In this document: positions 47,187 to 59,800 of the stretch, piece by piece
Layout: each line of letters starts with the position of its first letter
Numbering within the stretch: the stretch's first letter is position 1
Assembly (NCBI RefSeq): GCF_029873635.1
Contig: NC_080422.1
Location: forward strand, 6,665,764 to 6,729,763
Length of the DNA: 64,000 nt
Direction of reading: 5' to 3'
Origin: Malania oleifera
Taxonomy: Eukaryota > Streptophyta > Magnoliopsida > Santalales > Ximeniaceae
Program-made: the position numbers and the translations under genes
The notes under the pieces: generated by a model
What the model saw: the letters and a program-made list of their open reading frames with translations, nothing else
The model's database searches: none
Told to the model about the DNA's origin: nothing

Positions 47187-48589
47187 GTTTGTGTTAATCT
47201 TATAGGTCATACCTGATTTTGATAATGACAAATACTCTTGGTATTTGGTGAGTTCGAGTTTGTGTGCAGGTATATAATTAGCAGATCAACTAATGACACA
47301 TGAAGACTCAAAGTCTAAAGACCTCGAAGACTTCTTTTGTTGTAATTAATATTTTCTCTATTCGGGTCTGTAATAGTAAATAGGATATCGTTCTGTAATA
47401 ATATCTGCATGTAATACATGTAAGTTTTATAATCTCAAAATGACTACAGAATGACCATAGGGGCTCAATGACCTTAAGGCACCCTTCAGTCGACCGATGC
47501 CGGATTTTTGAGACTATCTCAAAACGGCCCTTGAAAAGACCTTAGTGAGACTCTAGGCCCCAACACTCACACATATATCATATAATATACTGGAGTGTTA
47601 AGTTTGTGCTTTAAATTGAACAATTATCAGGAATTTGGGAGAGCTCAGGCGACCAAACCCCTGGAGTTCAAAACTCCTTGGGCGCCCGAACTGTTGAAAA
47701 GTCAACAGTTGACTTGGGCTCTCGGGCGACCAAACCTTTTTGTGCATACTAGCCTTGGGCGCCTGAACCCTTCGAAAGGGACATTCCACCAACTTGGGCT
47801 ATTGAGCGGTTTAGTTCAAAAGTGCCCCAGGCGACCAAACACACGAGTTCAGGCTACCGAATCTATGACTGAGCACTCGAATTTACGAAAAAATGTTTCT
47901 GACTTTGTTTCAGGATACCGAACTAAAACTCGAGCTGTCGAACCCATTTAAGGACCTTTATTTACTATGTATGTTCGGGCGACCGAACTTCGGTTCAGCC
48001 ACTCGAACCTTGTCGGGTTAAAACTATTTTAACTGAGGTAAACACAGGTTAATTTGGGTTAATATTTCCTAAGCATTTTGGACTTTTCTAAGAATACCCA
48101 ATAGGTCCTAAACAGTTATATTTTTGCCTTGGTCTATAAATATGAGTTCATTTGTGAGGATTAAGTGGAGATTAAGAAAAATCATTAGCCAAAATTCTCT
48201 CAAACCCAAAATCCCATTTTGCTTATAATACTTCCAAACACTTTCATACTTTCATTCCATTGATTAATCTTAGCTTTGTGAGAATTCTTGCTTGGGTTAC
48301 TGCTTAGTATTATTGCTCATACTCCCATTACTTTGCTTGGTTGATTGGTATTGATTTTGGGGAGTTAAGCAAGGTTTTCCCACCGATTTTATTTGATAAA
48401 TCTCATGTTGGGAAAAACCTAGTAGCTTAAAGATCTTTGCATTATCATTGCAAAGATTCCTATAGCTTAATTTTGGTGTGCAAAATATTTTTTTCATAAG
48501 CTAAAATATTTTCTATTGTAACCCGGAAAATAATAGAATTTAAATAAAGAGGGAGAGAAAATAGAAACAGAAACAGAAGGAGGTCGTAG

Positions 48590-48812
48590 ACTTCGTCGAC
48601 AACATTGCATTTTGGAAAATAAAAATAATTTTAGGAAATTGCCCAACTTCGTCGACGAACACAGGGTTTTGTCGATGAAGGTCTTTAGAATTTCGTTGAT
48701 GAACACAGGGCTTCGTCAACGAAAAAATACCGAGAGACTGATTTCGGGCCTCTGAATTTCGTCGACGAATACAAGGCTTCGTCGACGAGGTGACGTGTCT
48801 CGTCAACGAATC
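48590..48812. promoter_or_regulatory. cluster of GTCGAC-core palindromes upstream of an LTR TATA box
   Basis: Eight variants of TTCGTCGACGAA lie in about 220 bp, several perfect palindromes. Three successive pairs are joined by an ACACAGGG- or ACAAGG-like spacer with a centre-to-centre distance of 20 bp, and the last pair by 21 bp. The cluster ends 8-9 bp before the TATA box. That these are binding sites is inference. Confidence 0.7.
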
Positions 48813-48817
48813 TGGTC

Positions 48818-48826
48818 CTATATAAG
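48818..48826 (+). promoter_or_regulatory. TATA box of the LTR
   Basis: CTATATAAG lies directly after the palindrome cluster and about 36 bp before the CT tract, a usual geometry for a plant LTR promoter. Confidence 0.6.
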
Positions 48827-48859
48827 TAGGGAAAACCGGATTTTATCACATTTTTACCG

Positions 48860-48861
<2 letters not shown>

Positions 48862-48922
<61 letters not shown>
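48862..48922. repeat. (CT)n microsatellite in an LTR leader
   Basis: A CT tract of about 60 bp immediately downstream of the LTR TATA box. Similar tracts occupy the same place in the LTRs at 52438-54453, 59865-61703 and 62118-64000. Confidence 0.9.
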
Positions 48923-48927
<5 letters not shown>

Positions 48928-49630
48928 CTCCCTCTCCCTTCTCTCTTCGATTCAGGCCTCTCCCTTCTCTCTTCGATTCCGGCCCCACCAGTCACTGGAT
49001 CGACGATTCGAAGCTACCACAACACTCCTGGCAGAGTTCTCTGCACATCTGCCGGAGCGGATCGTCGGGAAAACAGAGTTGGATTTCATCCCAAATTCAG
49101 GGTAAGGCATTTTAGTTAGTTTTTGAATTTTTGGCAGTTATAGGAAATGATATAGACGAAAAAGTACTGATATTTTGTTCTGACATATGTTGGTTTCAGG
49201 GTGTTTTGTAGGAGGCCCTACGAGTGTTAGGCTTGTATTCCCGAGGGGCTTTCCAGTAGTCAGGTAAGGGAAATATGCTATGTTAGGAAGTTTTAAAAAT
49301 ATTATGCAATTTATTTAAGGATGAAAATTATGTATTAATGTATCGCGTGGCTTGTGAATATTAACGTAGTACGAAGATATGTTCTATGATATTTTGTGTT
49401 CTGATTTTACGATATTTCAGCACCTTGACTATACGATATTTCAGTAGCATGGTTTTATGATTCTCAGTACCATGATTACATGAATATCAGTATTATGATT
49501 ATACAATTTCAGTATTATGATCATGCAGCTTCAGTATTATGATTATTCAATTCTTAGTATTATGTATGAATTATAGTTACAGTTTATGCAGCATCATGAT
49601 TATTTCAGTACTTCAGAATCATGACAAATC

Positions 49631-49669
<39 letters not shown>

Positions 49670-51521
49670 GATATCAGACCCTGTTGGACTTGTAGCTATA
49701 GAGCATGGTACCGTTGCTACAGATACTATGTTACTTATTTAGTGTAACCACCTATTCAGATAATACGTGGTAAGGTCGACCACCTAGGCCCTTAAAGAGG
49801 TTAGGCTCCCCATCCAGATATGGGTTGAGGCGGGCAGGTCGACTGACAGAGTTCAACGATTTATTCCTGGTTGGCCAGCCAGGGTAAATCTAGCCTACGG
49901 GCCGCACAACCCTGTCATGAAGGGGGCAAGTCATGACACACAGATAGCCACAGGGAACCATTTCAGTTACTATTACATACGTACAGATTTACAGTAATAG
50001 GGACTACACTTATGTACACTAGAAGTATTTGAATTATAACCATAATACTATCATGTTAAGCAATAGGGAAAAGGGGTGGTGTATTCTATTATTTGTACTG
50101 TTCTTTTGTACTCAGTTATTCATGTGTATATGAAAACAGATTTCATGATATATGTATAGTAACTCATTTGCCACATACTAGTAATAACATATTTCTCCTT
50201 ACTGAGTGTTGGCTCATCCCAGTGTTGATATATTTTTCAGGTGATCCAGGTAAGCGAGCAGACCAGGTTCGCAAATAGAGGGGCTTCTGTAGTGCCCTGA
50301 TAGAGAGTGAGTGTCATTTTTGGGAGCATTTTTGTATAGCCCTCACCAGTTGAGGTTATTTTGGGAACAGTGATATATGTATATTTTGAAATTACATACT
50401 AGCACTCTGGTATTGTATATAAACATATATGGATGTGTTTATTCAGTTCCACTTCTTGCTACTTAGGTTTTGGTTGGGTTTTCCCCCAGCATGGTATCAG
50501 AGCATGTAGAATATTAGTGTAAAAGAAAAAAAAAAAAAAAAAAACCTAGTTTTTTAAGCAGGTTGTTACATTTTCAAACTACTATTGTGCTCATTACATT
50601 GAAGGAAAATCTTTTGAGTTAAGTTTGAATATTTGAGTAACATCTTTGAAACTCTGATTTGCAAAGATTCCTATAGCTTGATTTTGGTGTGCAAAATATT
50701 TTTCCACAAGTTAAAATATTTTTAAACTACTCTTGTGGTCATTACATTGAAGGAAAATCTTTTGAGTTAAGTGTAAATATTTGAGTAACATCTTTGAAAC
50801 CCTGATTTACTATTGAGATTTCATTTAACTTGTTTCAAAGATACAGCTTGTTTAGAACACTCTTGATCATATTAGCCATCATATCTTATTGAGTGTGGCT
50901 TGCACAAAAATATACATCACTGAGCTTACATTTACCTTCATTGTTGATGTGTATGTGATTGATTAAGTATACTGCGCATATCGGGGTACATATCTGCTTT
51001 ACATGAAAGCATAATCACTGTATCATTTATATTGAGAAACATATTGTTGTATTTCCAAGGGTGGCCTGAGGGGGTAGAAGGATTAGGTTGGGGTCAGCCT
51101 TGTGAATTTGACCTAGGGCCTTCTCCGCCTCGCAAGGAGAGTTTGTAAAGGTTGAGGTCAGTCCTGTGCTAATTGACCTAATTGTATTAGGTGTCGCTCC
51201 ACCCATTAATTGAGCCATTAATGGAATCCTCGGGCTTGCGAGTTAGAGGCGGGGACGTAGGCACAGTTTGCCGAACCCCAATAACATATCTTGTGTGCAC
51301 CGTTTATCTTTCTACAATTTATATTCGTGCACATGTATGTTATAGCTGGTGAATGCTGCGTATGATTTTAATTTTCGTACGTTATACTTATCTAAGCATT
51401 TGGAACTGCATAGACAAACCCTAGGTTGTGAATGTACTGCTGCTATTTAGGTCAAACTTAGGAAAAAGTTTTAAATTCCAATTCACCCCCCTCTTGGGAA
51501 TACACCAAGGCTAACGGTTTG

Positions 51522-52432: not shown

Positions 52433-54186
52433 GTCGTTGTAACGACCTACTTTTCTTATCATATAATAAAACATAATAAATAAAATAGTCAACCTGAACC
52501 CGTAGGTAATGGGGACACCTGTCATATACAGCGGAACCAAGGTAGCAGTAAATGAAAATCACATTCTTATAACCATAAAATATAAAATACTAGAGTCAAC
52601 TACAATCCACAGTGATACTGTATTTATATACAACCTCAAAACATCAAAAATACATCTAGGATCCCACGGCAAACAAATCCCCTGATCCTAGCACAAAACT
52701 TACCCTCCTAACGGGGTAACACAGACCTAACTCAACGGTGGCCATGGTCCGCCGGTCTTTTTGGGTTTCTTGAAAATCATTTAATGTTCGGGGGTGAGAC
52801 ACTTCTCAGTAAGGGGAAATAAACTACATACAACTGTGTAACAACATGAATATTTGATGTAATTATATATATGCAGTACATTTCATATATCTGAAACATT
52901 CATCATAACATACTGAATAATCAAATACTTTCGTATTTTATAATAAATCATATAGTTCACAAAATGTCTGGTATAGCTGATAATACTGAAAACATAACAA
53001 GGATGAATAGTTAGCTGATGTCATGTTTTACCCCCCATGACAAGTTGTGCAGCCCAAAGGCGGGAGCCGACAATGACTGACCGACCACTGCCGAGTCAAA
53101 AATGTCTGTAAGTACGATGGGCTTGCCACACCCTGGTCCGAAACTGCTAGGTGGACGTCTACAACTCTACACTGAAAGCCACATCGACTATCCATCTCTC
53201 ACCCCTTGTGGGGTGGTTAGCACAAGTCTGAACATAGATATCTAATCTATATAGTTATGGTACCGTGCTCCTGAAACTGAATTAAGCTAACATTTGGGTT
53301 CTTATAACATATAATACATGATAATATAACATTTAACATAAATGGATTGATAGCATTTCTATACTTTCATAAATACGACCTTGTGTCGAACATTTCATAA
53401 ACACGGCCTTGCGCTGGAAACATAAAACATACACGGCCTTGCGCCGGCTATCAATCATGGCATTGCGCTAAAAATCTCATACGTATCATTTTGAGTAAAT
53501 AAATCATTTATCATGTATTTTAAAATCATCACATACTGCATTATTTCATAATTCCTAAAAACATGTTTATTCATACAATTGTCATAATATAATACATATC
53601 ATGTAAAAATAATGTTCATGCCACATAATACTGAATAAATCATACATTTCATTCTAAAAGCGTAATTCCTGTATAACAGCAGTATTTTCCCAAATATGCA
53701 TTTTATTAAATAATATTCAGATATAATACATGTTTTTCTAAAAATTAATTTGCTGATAAATAATAGTAATTTGCGTGGAAAATAACTACTTTAGTTTATT
53801 CCCTTACCTGACACTGAAAAGAAACCCCTTAAAAATCTACTCGTCCTGCACCCGTAGGGTTCCCCGAGCAATACCTTGAAACTAACAACTCACAGTACTA
53901 AATTTCACTATTTCTCCGTGAATAACCTTTCCTATAACTATGGGAAGACCAAATTCTAAATATTTAGCCTTATCTTGAATCAGGGATGAATTTCAACTCA
54001 CTCCCACCAACGATCCGCTCCGGCAGATTTGGAGAGAACTTCCCCCGGAGCGTCGTGGTGGCCTCAAATTGTTGATCCGGCAAATGACGAAGCCAAAATA
54101 GAAAAGGGAGGAGAGAGAAATCGTAGGGAGGAGAGAGAGAGAGAGAGGGAGAGTGATTTTTCTGCATTTAAATCCGAGTTTCACAT

Positions 54187-54195
54187 TATTTATAC
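54187..54195 (-). promoter_or_regulatory. TATA box of the reverse-oriented LTR
   Basis: GTATAAATA on the minus strand lies 6 bp beyond the last CTTCGTCGACGAG palindrome (54202-54214). This matches the arrangement in the LTR at 48517-50570. Confidence 0.55.
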
Positions 54196-54201
54196 TAGGG
54201 G

Positions 54202-54365
54202 CTTCGTCGACGAGTCACGTCACCTCGTCAACGAGGTCAATAGGCAATTCGTTGATAAACTCTCCCCTTCATTAACGAAATTCAGAATCGCCCAAATATC
54301 CCCTTGGTATCTTCTTGTCGACGAGACATACCCTCGTCGACAAGCCCAAAGAGCAACGTCGTCGA
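54202..54365. promoter_or_regulatory. second cluster of GTCGAC-core palindromes
   Basis: About seven variants of TTCGTCGACGAA in 165 bp. Neighbouring pairs have centre spacings of about 21, 20, 19 and 25 bp. The cluster is adjacent to the LTR TATA box and is orthologous in position to the cluster at 48590-48812, but with different spacer sequence. Confidence 0.68.
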
Positions 54366-54458
54366 CGAAGCCTGCTGTTCCCCTTTTTTCTTGTTTCCAT
54401 TTTCCCACTCTCTTAATTATTATTTAAATACCATTATTCTTCAGGTCATTACAGTTGT

Positions 54459-54843
54459 CATCATGCGACAAGGGGGTATATAAAGATGATCTAATAAGGC
54501 ACAAATCTCTTATTACCCTCCATAATCATGATAATATATATTAAAAAATCTATGTGTATGAATTTATATTGCATCATAAATATTATATTATGGGGGGTAT
54601 TTGTGCAATTTACAAGTGAAAATATAGTTCATGTAACCTATTTATTATTACAATAAAAAACTATACATTTTAATTTGGGAATTTTGGGAATGAAGTTTTA
54701 ATTTTTATTATTAAGGGCAAGTTTCGAATTATTTAATTATTAATAATTTTTTTTTTAAATAAAAGAGAGTGACCTTTCTTGAAATTTGATAAAAGATATC
54801 ATCTCTCTTAAGGTTTTTTTTTTTTTTTTTTAAAAAAAATTAC
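54459..54843. other. AT-rich spacer
   Basis: A/T-rich DNA with poly-T and poly-A runs near 54748 and 54816-54838. No gene is recognised. Confidence 0.6.
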
Positions 54844-55811
54844 TGATATATCCTAAATATACCAAGGTCAAATAGTCAATCTGCAGCATTAAGACACAAC
54901 AACAATCAAGGTCATCATCACTCAAGGACAACTGCTCTGAAGGGGTCAACCCCATATAGGCCAGAGCGATCCACGCCCGCGCCGTAGACAACTGGTGTCA
55001 GCTCTTTAAAGGCCAGAGCAATTCACGCCCGTGCCATAACTCACCACTAAATGGCCATACATCCTCGATCAACTTCTGCCACCATAAATAGGGACTCGAG
55101 CGAGAGGCCAAGGTATCTCCTTCATAACCACACTTTATTGTTGCATATCACCCCTCTGAAGCAGTCCCTTACTTAGGCATCGGAGAGATCCCCCGAAATA
55201 CATCTCAGGTAATCCAAGCCATGTTTGTTTTCATCTGTTTCAAGTTTTTGAAAGTCAAAAGGCTCGTCAGAGGTCATTGCATTTTTATCCCGCAATAGTT
55301 GGCGTTGTCTGTGGGAACTTTCTAAGAGGTGCTCATCCTACTTCCAACATCCGATTCTCGAATCATGACAACAACCAATGATTCTAGCTCCAGTCTAGCC
55401 TTTGGTAATCAATCACCCCAATCCACTCACTTCATGCTCGTAGATCATTCGGGAGTTATAAGGGAGGAATTCCTTACCTTCCAAAGGAGAATGGAGGTCT
55501 CCCAGAAGAAGATGGAGTACATGTTTAACATGCTCTTACAATGAAAGAGTCATGTTGTCCCCCGCCAATAGCCGAGTAACCTTGACTCATAGGAGAAAGT
55601 GAGAAACCCAAATGAGAGTAACGAAAAAACTAACCCCACAAAGAAGGTGGAGGACGCGAACAACGTAGGAGTCAACGAGTAATGATCAAATGAGTTAGAA
55701 GAAATGATAAAGAAGATCGATCAGATAGAAAAAATGATGAAATAGGGATGAACCAACCCCTCCTATGGAGAAAATTCACTAAAGTCTTCAGATCCACCTT
55801 TCACCAAAGAC

Positions 55812-57179: not shown

Positions 57180-58320
57180 CAGACTGATGAGCAACGCTCG
57201 CGAGGTTAGAGAACAGCTCGATGAAAATAGCCTGGCAAGAATTGCCATCAAGAGTGGCTCGACGAGAACAGCTCGGCAAAAATTGCCCAAAACAGTGATT
57301 CGGTAAGAACAGCTCGACATAAATTGCCAAGGAAAGTTGTTCGGCAAAAAATAGCTCGACATGAATTGCCCAGAGAGCGGCTCGACAAGAATAGTCGGCA
57401 GAAATTGCCAAAGAAAAGCAGCTCAGGAAAAATAGCTTGACATGAATTGCCATCGAGAGCAGCTCAGCAAGAATTGCCATCAAGGGCTATTCGGCAAGAA
57501 CAACTCAGCAAAAATTACCCAAGACAATGGGTTGGTAAGAACAAATCGGCATAAATTGCCAAGGAAAGCTATTCAGCAAAAATAGCTCGGCAAGAAGAGC
57601 TCGGCAAAAATTTTCATCAAGGGCAGCTTGGCAAGAAGAGCTCAGCAAGAATTTCCCAAGAGAGCGGCTTGGCAAGAACAGCTCTGCATAAATTGCCAAA
57701 AAGAGCAACTTGGTAAAAATAGCTCAGCAAGAATTGCCATGAAGAGTGGCTCGACAAGAACAGATAAGCAAGAATTGCCATTAAGGGTGGCTCAGCAAGA
57801 ACAGCTCGACCAAAATTGCCCAAGATAGCAGTTCAGCAAGAACAATTCGGCATAAATTGCCAAGGAAAGCTATTCGGCAAGAAGAGCTTGGCAAGAATTG
57901 CCATCAAGGGCGGCTCGGCAAGAGCAGCTCGGTAAGAAAAGCTTGGCAATAATTGCCTAAGAGAGCGGCTCAACAAGAACAACTCGGTAAAAATTTCCAA
58001 GAAGAGTAGCTCGGCAGAAACAGCATGGCAAGAATTGGCAAGAACAACTAGGCAAAAATTGCCAAGAAAGCAACTCGGCAAAAATAGCTAGGCAAGATTC
58101 GCCATTAAGAGCAGCTTGGCAGAAACAACTTAGTGAGAATGGCCCAAGAGAGCAGCTCGGCAAGAATAGCTCGGCCAAAATTGCCAAAGAGAGCACTTCG
58201 GCCAAATCAGCTTGGCAAGAGCAGCTCGGCAAGAACGGCGGCTTGGTAAGAATTGTCAAAGAGAGCAGATCGACACACAAGACTTGGCAAGAAAAGCCAT
58301 AGAGAGCAGCTCAATAAGAA
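57180..58320. repeat. degenerate ~43-bp repeat array inside the Tat-like element
   Basis: About 1.1 kb is made of variants of GCTCGGCAAGAATTGCCAAG, GAGAGCGGCTCGGCAAGAA and related phrases with a basic period of about 40-45 bp, roughly two dozen copies. It lies between the gag fossil and the right LTR. Internal short-repeat arrays in this place are known in Tat/Ogre-type elements. Minus-strand open frames here arise from the repetition and are not genes. Confidence 0.85.
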
Positions 58321-58984
58321 GCTCCCTAGTCGACCTCCTCCGAGTTTGGCCCGACAATTAATGAAGTAGCCCATTAACTCGCAAAAGGCCGAGCAGGCAT
58401 ATGTCGGCTCGAATCAACCGAGCTCCCCTCTTCTGCTCGGATAAGCCAAGCACGCTTCAAGGCAAAAAAAAAAACTTCTGAATTTCAGAAGTAGTGTTCC
58501 ATAAATTCAAAACTAAAAGGGAGGGCAACTGATATACTCTAAATATACCAAGGTCAAATAGTTTATCTGTAGCATTAAGGTGCAGCAACAATCAAGGCCA
58601 TCATCGCTCAAGGATAGCTGCTCTGAAGGGGTCAACCCCATATAGGCTAGAGCGATCCACGCCCATGCCACAAACAGTTGGTGTCAACTCCTTAAAGGCC
58701 AAAGCAATTCACGCCCGCGCCATAACTCGCCAATAAATGGCCATACATCCTCAGGTCAACTTCTGCAACTATAAATAGGGACTCGGGTGAGTGGCCAAGG
58801 TATCTCATTCATAACCATACTTTACTATTGCATATCACCTCTCTCAAGCAGTCCCTTACTTAGGCATTGGAGAGATCCCCCGAAGTACATCCTGGGTCCT
58901 CCGAGCCACGTTTGTTTTCATTTTTTTTAGGATTTCGAAAGTTGAAAGGCTCGTCAAAGGTCATTGCATTTTTATCTCGCAACA

Positions 58985-59800
58985 GTTCAAACCTCCAATG
59001 AAATTCGGCAAAAAGATGCAAGTCTTCCTTGAATTTTCAAAAATCTCATGAACTTCTTTAAATATTTGATTTCTAGAATACTTATGCTCTCTTTCAAATA
59101 AAGCCCAATTAAGTGTGTACATGTCATTTTTCTAATTTTTTCTTATCCTTGTAGTTTCATTACACATGGTAGAGTCCAATGCACAACTTGGAAAAATTAT
59201 TGTAGCATGATTTTATGCAACTTATCATTCATTGATATAATTTGTTCATCAATCTTTTAAAAATAATCAAAATGTTATATGGTTACTTCTGAAGTAATTA
59301 TTATTTGTAAACTGAAAAAGTCGTTGTTCAATTTATGTTATTGGTGAAATTTTGATTTAAGGCTATAGACACCCTAATTTTCCTTGGACCTCTTTTTAAT
59401 AGGATCTCTCTATTAGTTCCCTCGCCTTTAGAAAAACTTACGGGAGTCGTTGCAATTTTACACAAAAATGGGGTCAATTTGGTATATTTTCATTATTTTT
59501 TTCTTTGCATTTCAGGAATGTTAGGGCCTTTAGGATAACATTTTATTTGGTCCCTCTAATTTCAATGTTATTTTTTACTGGACCTTGTTAATAGCATTCA
59601 ACTAGGTCCTTGCGTAGTCCTTTGATTGAGTTCTTTATTTTACAATCCTTTAATTGAGTCCTTTTATTTTCGTAGTCATTTAATTAAGTCCATTTGTTTT
59701 ACATTCCTTTAATTGAGTCCTCCTATTCCATTGAATAAAGATCATCCCTTTTTTAGTGACTCGAAAATTTAACTTGCTAAATATATCAAATACTCTCTGA
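58985..59800. other. intergenic stretch with a small phrase repeat
   Basis: No gene. At about 59610-59725 the phrase CCTTTAATTGAGTCC and variants recur four or five times with T-rich spacers (period about 35 bp). The rest is AT-rich. Confidence 0.6.

Follow-up and report, generated by a model that had tools for sequence, protein, structure and literature searches.

GTCGAC-centred palindromes on a 22-bp register ahead of the TATA box in long terminal repeats of an abundant Ty3/gypsy lineage of Malania oleifera

Introduction

The closest described counterparts of the array reported here are the RM boxes of Sireviruses, which are Ty1/copia retrotransposons (Bousios et al. 2010, PMC2829016; statements from this and other papers refer to the parts of their text available to us). 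RM boxes are palindromic, CpG-rich repeats present in high copy number ahead of the TATA box. At least eight are found per element, clustered in the upper half of the long terminal repeat (LTR) shortly before a conserved TATA, and they were termed Sirevirus-specific in comparison with the classic copia elements studied. Their cores include CGGTCGACCG (Vitis), also centred on GTCGAC, and GTCGGACGTCCGAC (Usier), and their matches in PLACE are mainly sites of stress-related factors. The array we describe lies in a solo LTR which we assign to a Ty3/gypsy element of Malania oleifera, in a stretch of 64,000 nucleotides (NC_080422.1, positions 6,665,764 to 6,729,763) referred to as the window. It resembles RM boxes in its palindromes, its eight copies, its place in the upper LTR and the TATA box 8 bp further on. 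The ratio of observed to expected CpG is 1.94 in the array and 0.52 in the LTR after 48830, so that by this ratio the array is CpG-island-like, as RM boxes are. On the other hand, the RM boxes of every listed element except Tnd-1 have a CGG-CCG signature, which is absent from this array with its core CGTCGACG. The carrier is a gypsy and not a copia element, and the available text on RM boxes does not mention a regular register or an alternation, unlike the 22-bp register found here.

Other systems share some of these features. LTRs of the Del lineage (Cruz et al. 2014, PMC4029996) belong to Ty3/gypsy, as our carrier does, and have a CpG-rich region (CpG islands) in the 5' part of the LTR. Their U3 end commonest in maize and sorghum, TGTAACACCC, resembles the TGTAACCCGG found here; the likeness of the carrier to the Del/Tekay lineage is limited to this end, and the string "palindrom" is absent from the main text of that paper. 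The palindromes of maize Sirevirus LTRs (Bousios et al. 2016, as cited in PMC5311732 and PMC10760457) also form a palindrome-rich cis-region, but in a copia carrier and with the core CACCGGACnnnGTCCGGTG; in subsequent papers, regulation and host small RNAs are proposed to be in a tug of war there. Tnt1-type elements, which PMC3601003 mentions, have short tandem repeats in U3 that are able to act in transcription. Literature searches, with subscription journals mostly outside their reach, gave only two papers, unrelated by title and abstract, for the 12-mer TTCGTCGACGAA, and no paper for the 12-mer CTCGTCGACGAG or for TCGTCGACGA together with retrotransposon. Tnt1-type repeats, which we take to be few, longer, carried by copia elements and without a palindrome lattice, differ from the array in these respects.

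An earlier note on this DNA, made from the sequence, knew of no description of such an array for plant LTRs. In fact, arrays of this kind, CpG-rich, palindromic and ahead of the TATA box, are known from Sireviruses. What is new here is the Ty3/gypsy carrier, the core CGTCGACG and the strict alternating 22-bp register.

Results

The array in the window

Eight variants of TTCGTCGACGAA, each with 0–2 mismatches, are found between 48592 and 48810:

48592..48603, no strand, palindrome 1, two mismatches
48648..48659, no strand, palindrome 2, perfect
48668..48679, no strand, palindrome 3, two CpG transitions
48692..48703, no strand, palindrome 4, two CpG transitions
48712..48723, no strand, palindrome 5, one CpG transition
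48758..48769, no strand, palindrome 6, perfect
48778..48789, no strand, palindrome 7, outer-pair variant (one mismatch)
48790..48798, plus strand, GTGACGTGT, conserved, with an ACGT core, in the spacer nearest the promoter
48799..48810, no strand, palindrome 8, nearest the TATA box, one CpG transition and one outer-pair change
48819..48826, plus strand, TATA box TATATAAG, 8 bp past the end of the last palindrome

In 500 shuffles of 48517–48830, sites with two mismatches or fewer had a mean of 0.08 and a maximum of 2, against the eight observed, so the array is not due to chance. Its ten mismatches comprise seven CpG transitions and three changes in the outermost pair, with none elsewhere. The start-to-start steps are 56, 20, 24, 20, 46, 20 and 21 bp. 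The spacers enclosed by the three 20-bp steps, CACAGGGT, CACAGGGC and TACAAGGC, are related, so these steps are not mutually independent. The earlier note was right about the eight variants in about 220 bp, about their end 8–9 bp before the TATA box and about their belonging to an LTR promoter; its three steps of 20 bp and one of 21 bp are also there, although it omitted those of 24, 46 and 56 bp.

A layout common to 77 copies

We collected 85 loci (L001–L085) and analyzed 77 of them: 39 of family A, to which the window copy belongs, 27 of family B, and 11 (family C) found through an exact pair of sites on the contig designated C1. The other eight either overlapped or repeated a locus (L005, L016, L018, L019) or could not be placed (L021, L031, L036, L045). 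Apart from losses of units, the 77 copies have a common layout, with steps of 20, 24, 20, 46, 20, 24 and 21 bp and the TATA box 8 bp further on; the sites usually lie about 195, 175, 151, 131, 85, 65, 41 and 20 bp before it. The outermost site is found in only one of the 27 family B copies. The gap between the last site and the TATA box is 8 bp in 69 of the 77 copies and 10 bp in three. In the remaining five (L010, L014, L053, L058, L075) the nearest recognised TATA is 30–142 bp away, which we read as a match to another TATA or a decayed site.

The window copy has one site fewer than the common layout. Its lattice is shifted 22 bp towards the TATA box, as in at least ten other family A copies and one family C copy, and in the shifted copies the TGACGTG spacer lies earlier by one interval, the arrangement that losing a single site would give. 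Of 249 pairs of consecutive steps, 241 are short-long or long-short, eight are short-short and none is long-long, so that the two step lengths take turns along the lattice.

Exact pairs of sites, allowing gaps of 0–30 bp, also fall into two classes. Among the first 50 TT..AA pairs listed, the gap is 7–9 bp in 33 and 11–13 bp in 17; among the first 50 CT..AG pairs listed it is 7–9 bp in 32, 10 bp in three, 12–13 bp in 14 and 20 bp in one. Measured from centre to centre, the two types are 19–21 and 24–25 bp, and just five of these 100 pairs are 22–23 bp apart. The whole genome contains 3123 TT..AA and 886 CT..AG exact pairs, with none in the controls.

A ruler of 22 bp

The earlier note proposed that paired sites would face the same side of the DNA, two helical turns apart, and suggested testing the distances for peaks near multiples of 10.5 bp. 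Only the 20–21 bp steps are near two turns, and they alternate with steps of 24–25 bp. The phase coherence (R) of the lattice is 0.04 at 10.5 bp, 0.86 at 11 bp and 0.97 at 22 bp. For 239 distances between exact sites in 2.3 Mb of C1, which were not selected by spacing, R is 0.12 at 10.5 bp, 0.35 at 11 bp, 0.76 at 22 bp and 0.78 at 22.25–22.5 bp. Helical phasing at 10.5 bp is thus rejected, and the array is not one of sites at multiples of about 10.5 bp.

The exact-site distances are distributed as follows: 45 of 19–25 bp, one of 26–40, 39 of 41–49, two of 50–61, 37 of 62–72, none of 73–83, 28 of 84–96 and none of 97–107. The odd multiples of 11 bp are almost unoccupied, and this, together with the high R at 22 bp, indicates that the ruler is 22 bp and not the B-DNA helix. 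Among the 45 neighbour steps of 19–25 bp, 15 are of 24–25 bp.

Palindromes and spacers in different subfamilies

Copies were compared slot by slot, excluding CpG positions and using spacers of equal length. Between groups, the palindromes are 0.877 (A-B), 0.891 (A-C), 0.851 (B-C) and 0.938 (C-C) identical, and the spacers 0.536, 0.583, 0.441 and 0.626. The sites therefore look constrained, with 85–94% identity between subfamilies against 44–63% for spacers. The contrast shrinks within families, to 0.935 against 0.853 in A and 0.945 against 0.867 in B.

Spacer lengths vary little: between groups they are equal in 33–55% of comparisons and differ by 1 bp or less in 71–88%. The length from slot 7 to slot 1 differs by 2 bp or less in 26 of 26 A-B pairs, 88% of 26 A-C, 77% of 48 B-C and 56% of 36 C-C pairs scored, out of 80, 80, 80 and 55 sampled. 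For LTR segments of similar length the values are 24% (of 204 segments), 38%, 22% and 32%. This test is biased towards the array, as slots are defined within 3 bp of the lattice.

In family A, spacers 8, 6 and 4 resemble each other (0.61–0.79, against 0.38–0.40 when shuffled), which looks like a trace of unit duplication. Some likeness is also found among the long spacers of family B (0.60 against 0.39) and, in family C, between intervals 8 and 6 (0.68 against 0.40) and, to a lesser extent, 6 and 4 (0.50 against 0.37). The earlier note would have given up its reading if the motif copies derived from one simple tandem duplication. This is partly the case: the three short family A spacers look like duplicates of each other, and one layout is common to the copies. 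Over the three CpGs of 540 sites, changes to TG (195) and to CA (200) are equally frequent, which fits old, methylated copies.

The spacer nearest the TATA box

The motif TGA(CG/TG/CA)TG is found in interval 2, the last spacer, in 42 of the 51 copies in which slots 2 and 1 are present, 34 of them exact, against 0.14 of 51 expected from shuffling. It is found in interval 3 in 12 of 69 copies, including the window copy, all of them shifted as by one lost site. Elsewhere it is practically absent: one of 72 copies in interval 4, and none of 47, 74 and 69 in intervals 8, 6 and 7. We take TGACGTG, or GTGACGTGT, to be an ACGT-core element of the bZIP type. This conserved element and the fixed gap to the TATA box speak for a promoter-proximal control region.

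The centre of the palindromes, GTCGAC, agrees in its letters with the CRT/DRE core CRTDREHVCBF2 of PLACE, a low-temperature responsive element listed as the binding core of the barley AP2 factor HvCBF2 (promoter table in PMC4553201). CBF/DREB factors may be considered as a lead to the proteins which would bind the palindromes.

The carrier element

The array is found in the U3 of the first of two solo LTRs in the window:

48517..50570, plus strand, solo LTR of family A, Ty3/gypsy, which starts with TGTAACCCGG and ends with AGGTTGTTACA
52438..54453, minus strand (inverted), second solo LTR of the same kind, family B, with flanks GTCGT/GTTGT
54203..54369, minus strand, array of seven palindromes in the family B LTR, starting at 54203, 54224, 54248, 54268, 54314, 54333 and 54358

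The first is called a solo LTR because there is no internal region between its ends. Most matches from relatives start at 48518, and TTTTC is found at 48509–48513, three nucleotides before the LTR, and at 50571–50575; these flanks look like a target duplication. An inner TATCAGAGC at 50495 was considered as a primer site and rejected, since the LTR extends to 50570. In the direction of the family B LTR, the steps are 25, 19, 46, 20, 24 and 21 bp, with the TATA box again after 8 bp. A long CT dinucleotide run (48862–48923) lies about 35 bp past the TATA box of the family A copy, near the expected transcription start; the inverted family B copy has a shorter, mixed run of CT type at about 54100–54156.

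Relatives include pairs of LTRs about 7 kb apart, with a purine tract ahead of the 3' LTR; the junction of this tract with the LTR was read in relatives. Of the 28 open stretches listed, from pieces of two relatives on C1 and C2, 18 were searched against Pfam; ten gave gag-pol domains and eight had no match. The relative on C2 has Retrotrans_gag, RVP_2, RVT_1, RNase H, Integrase_H2C2 and SH3_Tf2-1, and the one on C1 three of these six (RVP_2, RNase H and SH3_Tf2-1). Gag, protease, reverse transcriptase (RVT_1), RNase H and integrase are thus present in a relative which shares the LTR. Retrotrans_gag, RVP_2, RVT_1 and SH3_Tf2-1 are presumably a gypsy domain set, and from these domains the carrier is classified as a Ty3/gypsy element, probably a chromovirus. 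In the broken pieces searched, SH3_Tf2-1 was matched without a Chromo match for an integrase chromodomain. A Sirevirus carrier was also considered and rejected, as the relatives gave these domains and not a pol of the copia type. No DNA-binding protein encoded by the element was found among the 18 stretches.

Abundance in the genome

This Ty3/gypsy lineage is very abundant. The 10-mer core TCGTCGACGA has 132361 exact matches in the genome, against 1383 for the reversed control. Exact sites number 37861 for TTCGTCGACGAA (control 67), 29470 for CTCGTCGACGAG (control 36) and 54641 for the mixed form of the 12-mer, both orientations pooled (control 141). Their sum, 121972 exact YTCGTCGACGAR sites, means that 92.2% of the cores have a pyrimidine and a purine at the outer positions. 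In 2.3 Mb at one chromosome end (C1:93411-2428839) we found 243 exact YTCGTCGACGAR sites in 105 clusters, which by proportion extrapolates to about 52700 arrays in the genome. Beyond M. oleifera, no relatives were found in viral_contigs, and one match in a myxobacterial genome bin was taken as chance.

Discussion

We favour, with a probability of roughly 0.6, a cis-regulatory array in U3 for a putative host DNA-binding factor, whose spacing has been kept mainly by inheritance. The U3 of this lineage carries up to eight or nine copies of YTCGTCGACGAR on a 22-bp register, with steps of about 20 and 24 bp alternately; the last copy lies 8 bp ahead of the TATA box, and the spacer before it contains a TGACGTG element. 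Each palindrome would be a site at which a dimer, or two monomers, of a host protein binds and sets transcription of the element. The register may go back to an ancestor in which two sites formed a unit of about 44 bp; copying of this unit in register would have set the 22-bp ruler, and recombination between palindromes, adding or removing single units, would keep it. Neighbouring bound proteins might also cooperate. The protein-binding array suggested in the earlier note survives in this form: the palindromes have changed less than the DNA between them and the last one has a fixed distance to the TATA box, as in such an array. The helical phasing has to be abandoned.

Several points weigh against this reading. 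Sites that look conserved are favoured by the way in which copies and palindromes were picked: the copies either for similarity, out of the 40 best among 5788 and among 7342 candidates, or for an exact pair, and the palindromes for likeness to the motif (three mismatches or fewer; 16 of 614 sites with four were accepted at lattice distances). Shared ancestry reduces thousands of copies to few independent events. The host factor binding YTCGTCGACGAR is itself putative. The CBF lead is a match of 6 bp (GTCGAC), and AP2 factors are not known to need palindromes. Dyad symmetry has no consistent excess in the flanks beyond 12 bp, and the outer pair is weakly coupled (F = 0.10); symmetry ending at 12 bp and an almost free outer pair would fit two half-sites read almost independently. 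Duplication has no clear trace in family A comparisons with interval 2 (0.25–0.40 against 0.32–0.38 shuffled) or among family A long spacers (0.36 against 0.38), and little in family B short spacers (0.49–0.55 against 0.45–0.50). In addition, the RNA of 48640–48815 (plus strand) folds at -72.1 kcal/mol, against a shuffled mean of -48.9 (standard deviation 4.08, z = -5.69).

This strong fold is what would be expected if the palindromes act in RNA, pairing in a transcript which contains U3. The resulting hairpins would be of use to the element or supply host silencing, an idea put forward for the palindromes of maize Sireviruses; small-RNA hot spots over Sirevirus palindromes are cited (PMC5311732, PMC10760457). 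Any palindrome array should fold strongly, and a hairpin needs neither a fixed TATA gap nor alternation. An RNA stem should also tolerate C-to-U changes better, through G-U pairs; the similar numbers of TG and CA changes give no sign of a constraint on the sense-strand RNA, and we consider this explanation improbable. Equally improbable is a helically phased array, with cooperating dimers on one face of B-DNA and the spacing itself selected at multiples of 10.5 bp. The commonest steps, of 20–21 bp, and the uniform length from slot 7 to slot 1 in A-B pairs, subject to the bias mentioned, agree with it, but the coherence at 10.5 bp and the frequent alternating steps of 24–25 bp do not.

Two further explanations are somewhat less doubtful, though neither seems likely. 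The palindromes might be units of a neutral short tandem repeat to which no protein binds, and recombination or template switching in reverse transcription would keep the units alike. The alternation with a 44-bp unit, the losses of single units in register and the related spacers of family A, with a fainter likeness in family C and among the family B long spacers, would follow from such a repeat. Nevertheless, homogenisation of whole units would take the spacers along, and these diverge while the palindromes do not; a fixed gap of 8 bp to the TATA box and a TGACGTG limited, with one exception in 72, to the spacer nearest to it are not expected either. It is tentatively conceivable, to a similar degree, that the array is bound as an ordered lattice, with gaps of two alternating types, by a factor of the host or of the element, and that selection on this lattice, instead of mere inheritance, has preserved the 22-bp register in gypsy LTRs by the tens of thousands amid spacer turnover; such a palindrome platform would have evolved in parallel to that of the copia Sireviruses. 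As to the favoured reading, the sequence comparisons suggest sites constrained on an inherited ruler, with selection on the ruler itself as a possibility.

Should a host factor bind the sites, the roughly 50,000 arrays extrapolated from 2.3 Mb would be a ready-made binding platform across the genome, which might titrate the factor or rewire genes in the vicinity. With a factor of the CBF type, the element would be cold-responsive. With one design shared by two retrotransposon superfamilies, the convergent evolution of LTR promoters could be put to the test, and YTCGTCGACGAR offers a simple bait for its factor.

Other features of the window

The family A solo LTR is nested in another LTR-like sequence, which has a different motif array at 47485–48007: ten matches (four mismatches or fewer) to TTCGGGCGACCGAA, at irregular distances of 159, 33, 44, 33, 72, 22, 61, 65 and 20 bp. 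This array looks like a Sirevirus RM array. A TATA-like ctataaata is found near 48135 in the same sequence, which carries AATTCACCCCCCTCTTGG after the insertion (from 51480). We take the letters of AATTCACCCCCCTCTTGG to match a C-rich integrase signal of Sireviruses. The surrounding sequence, with its motif array and AATTCACCCCCCTCTTGG, would fit a Sirevirus LTR; such a C-rich signal lies near the LTR end in Sireviruses (PMC2829016).

Tandem repeats of 41 bp occupy 57229–58262, with 13 overlapping registered copies of 177 nt. A direct repeat of about 450 bp is found at 54842–55300 and 58528–58987, 87–88% identical and 3.69 kb apart; its two copies flank the 41-bp repeats and may be the LTR pair of another element.
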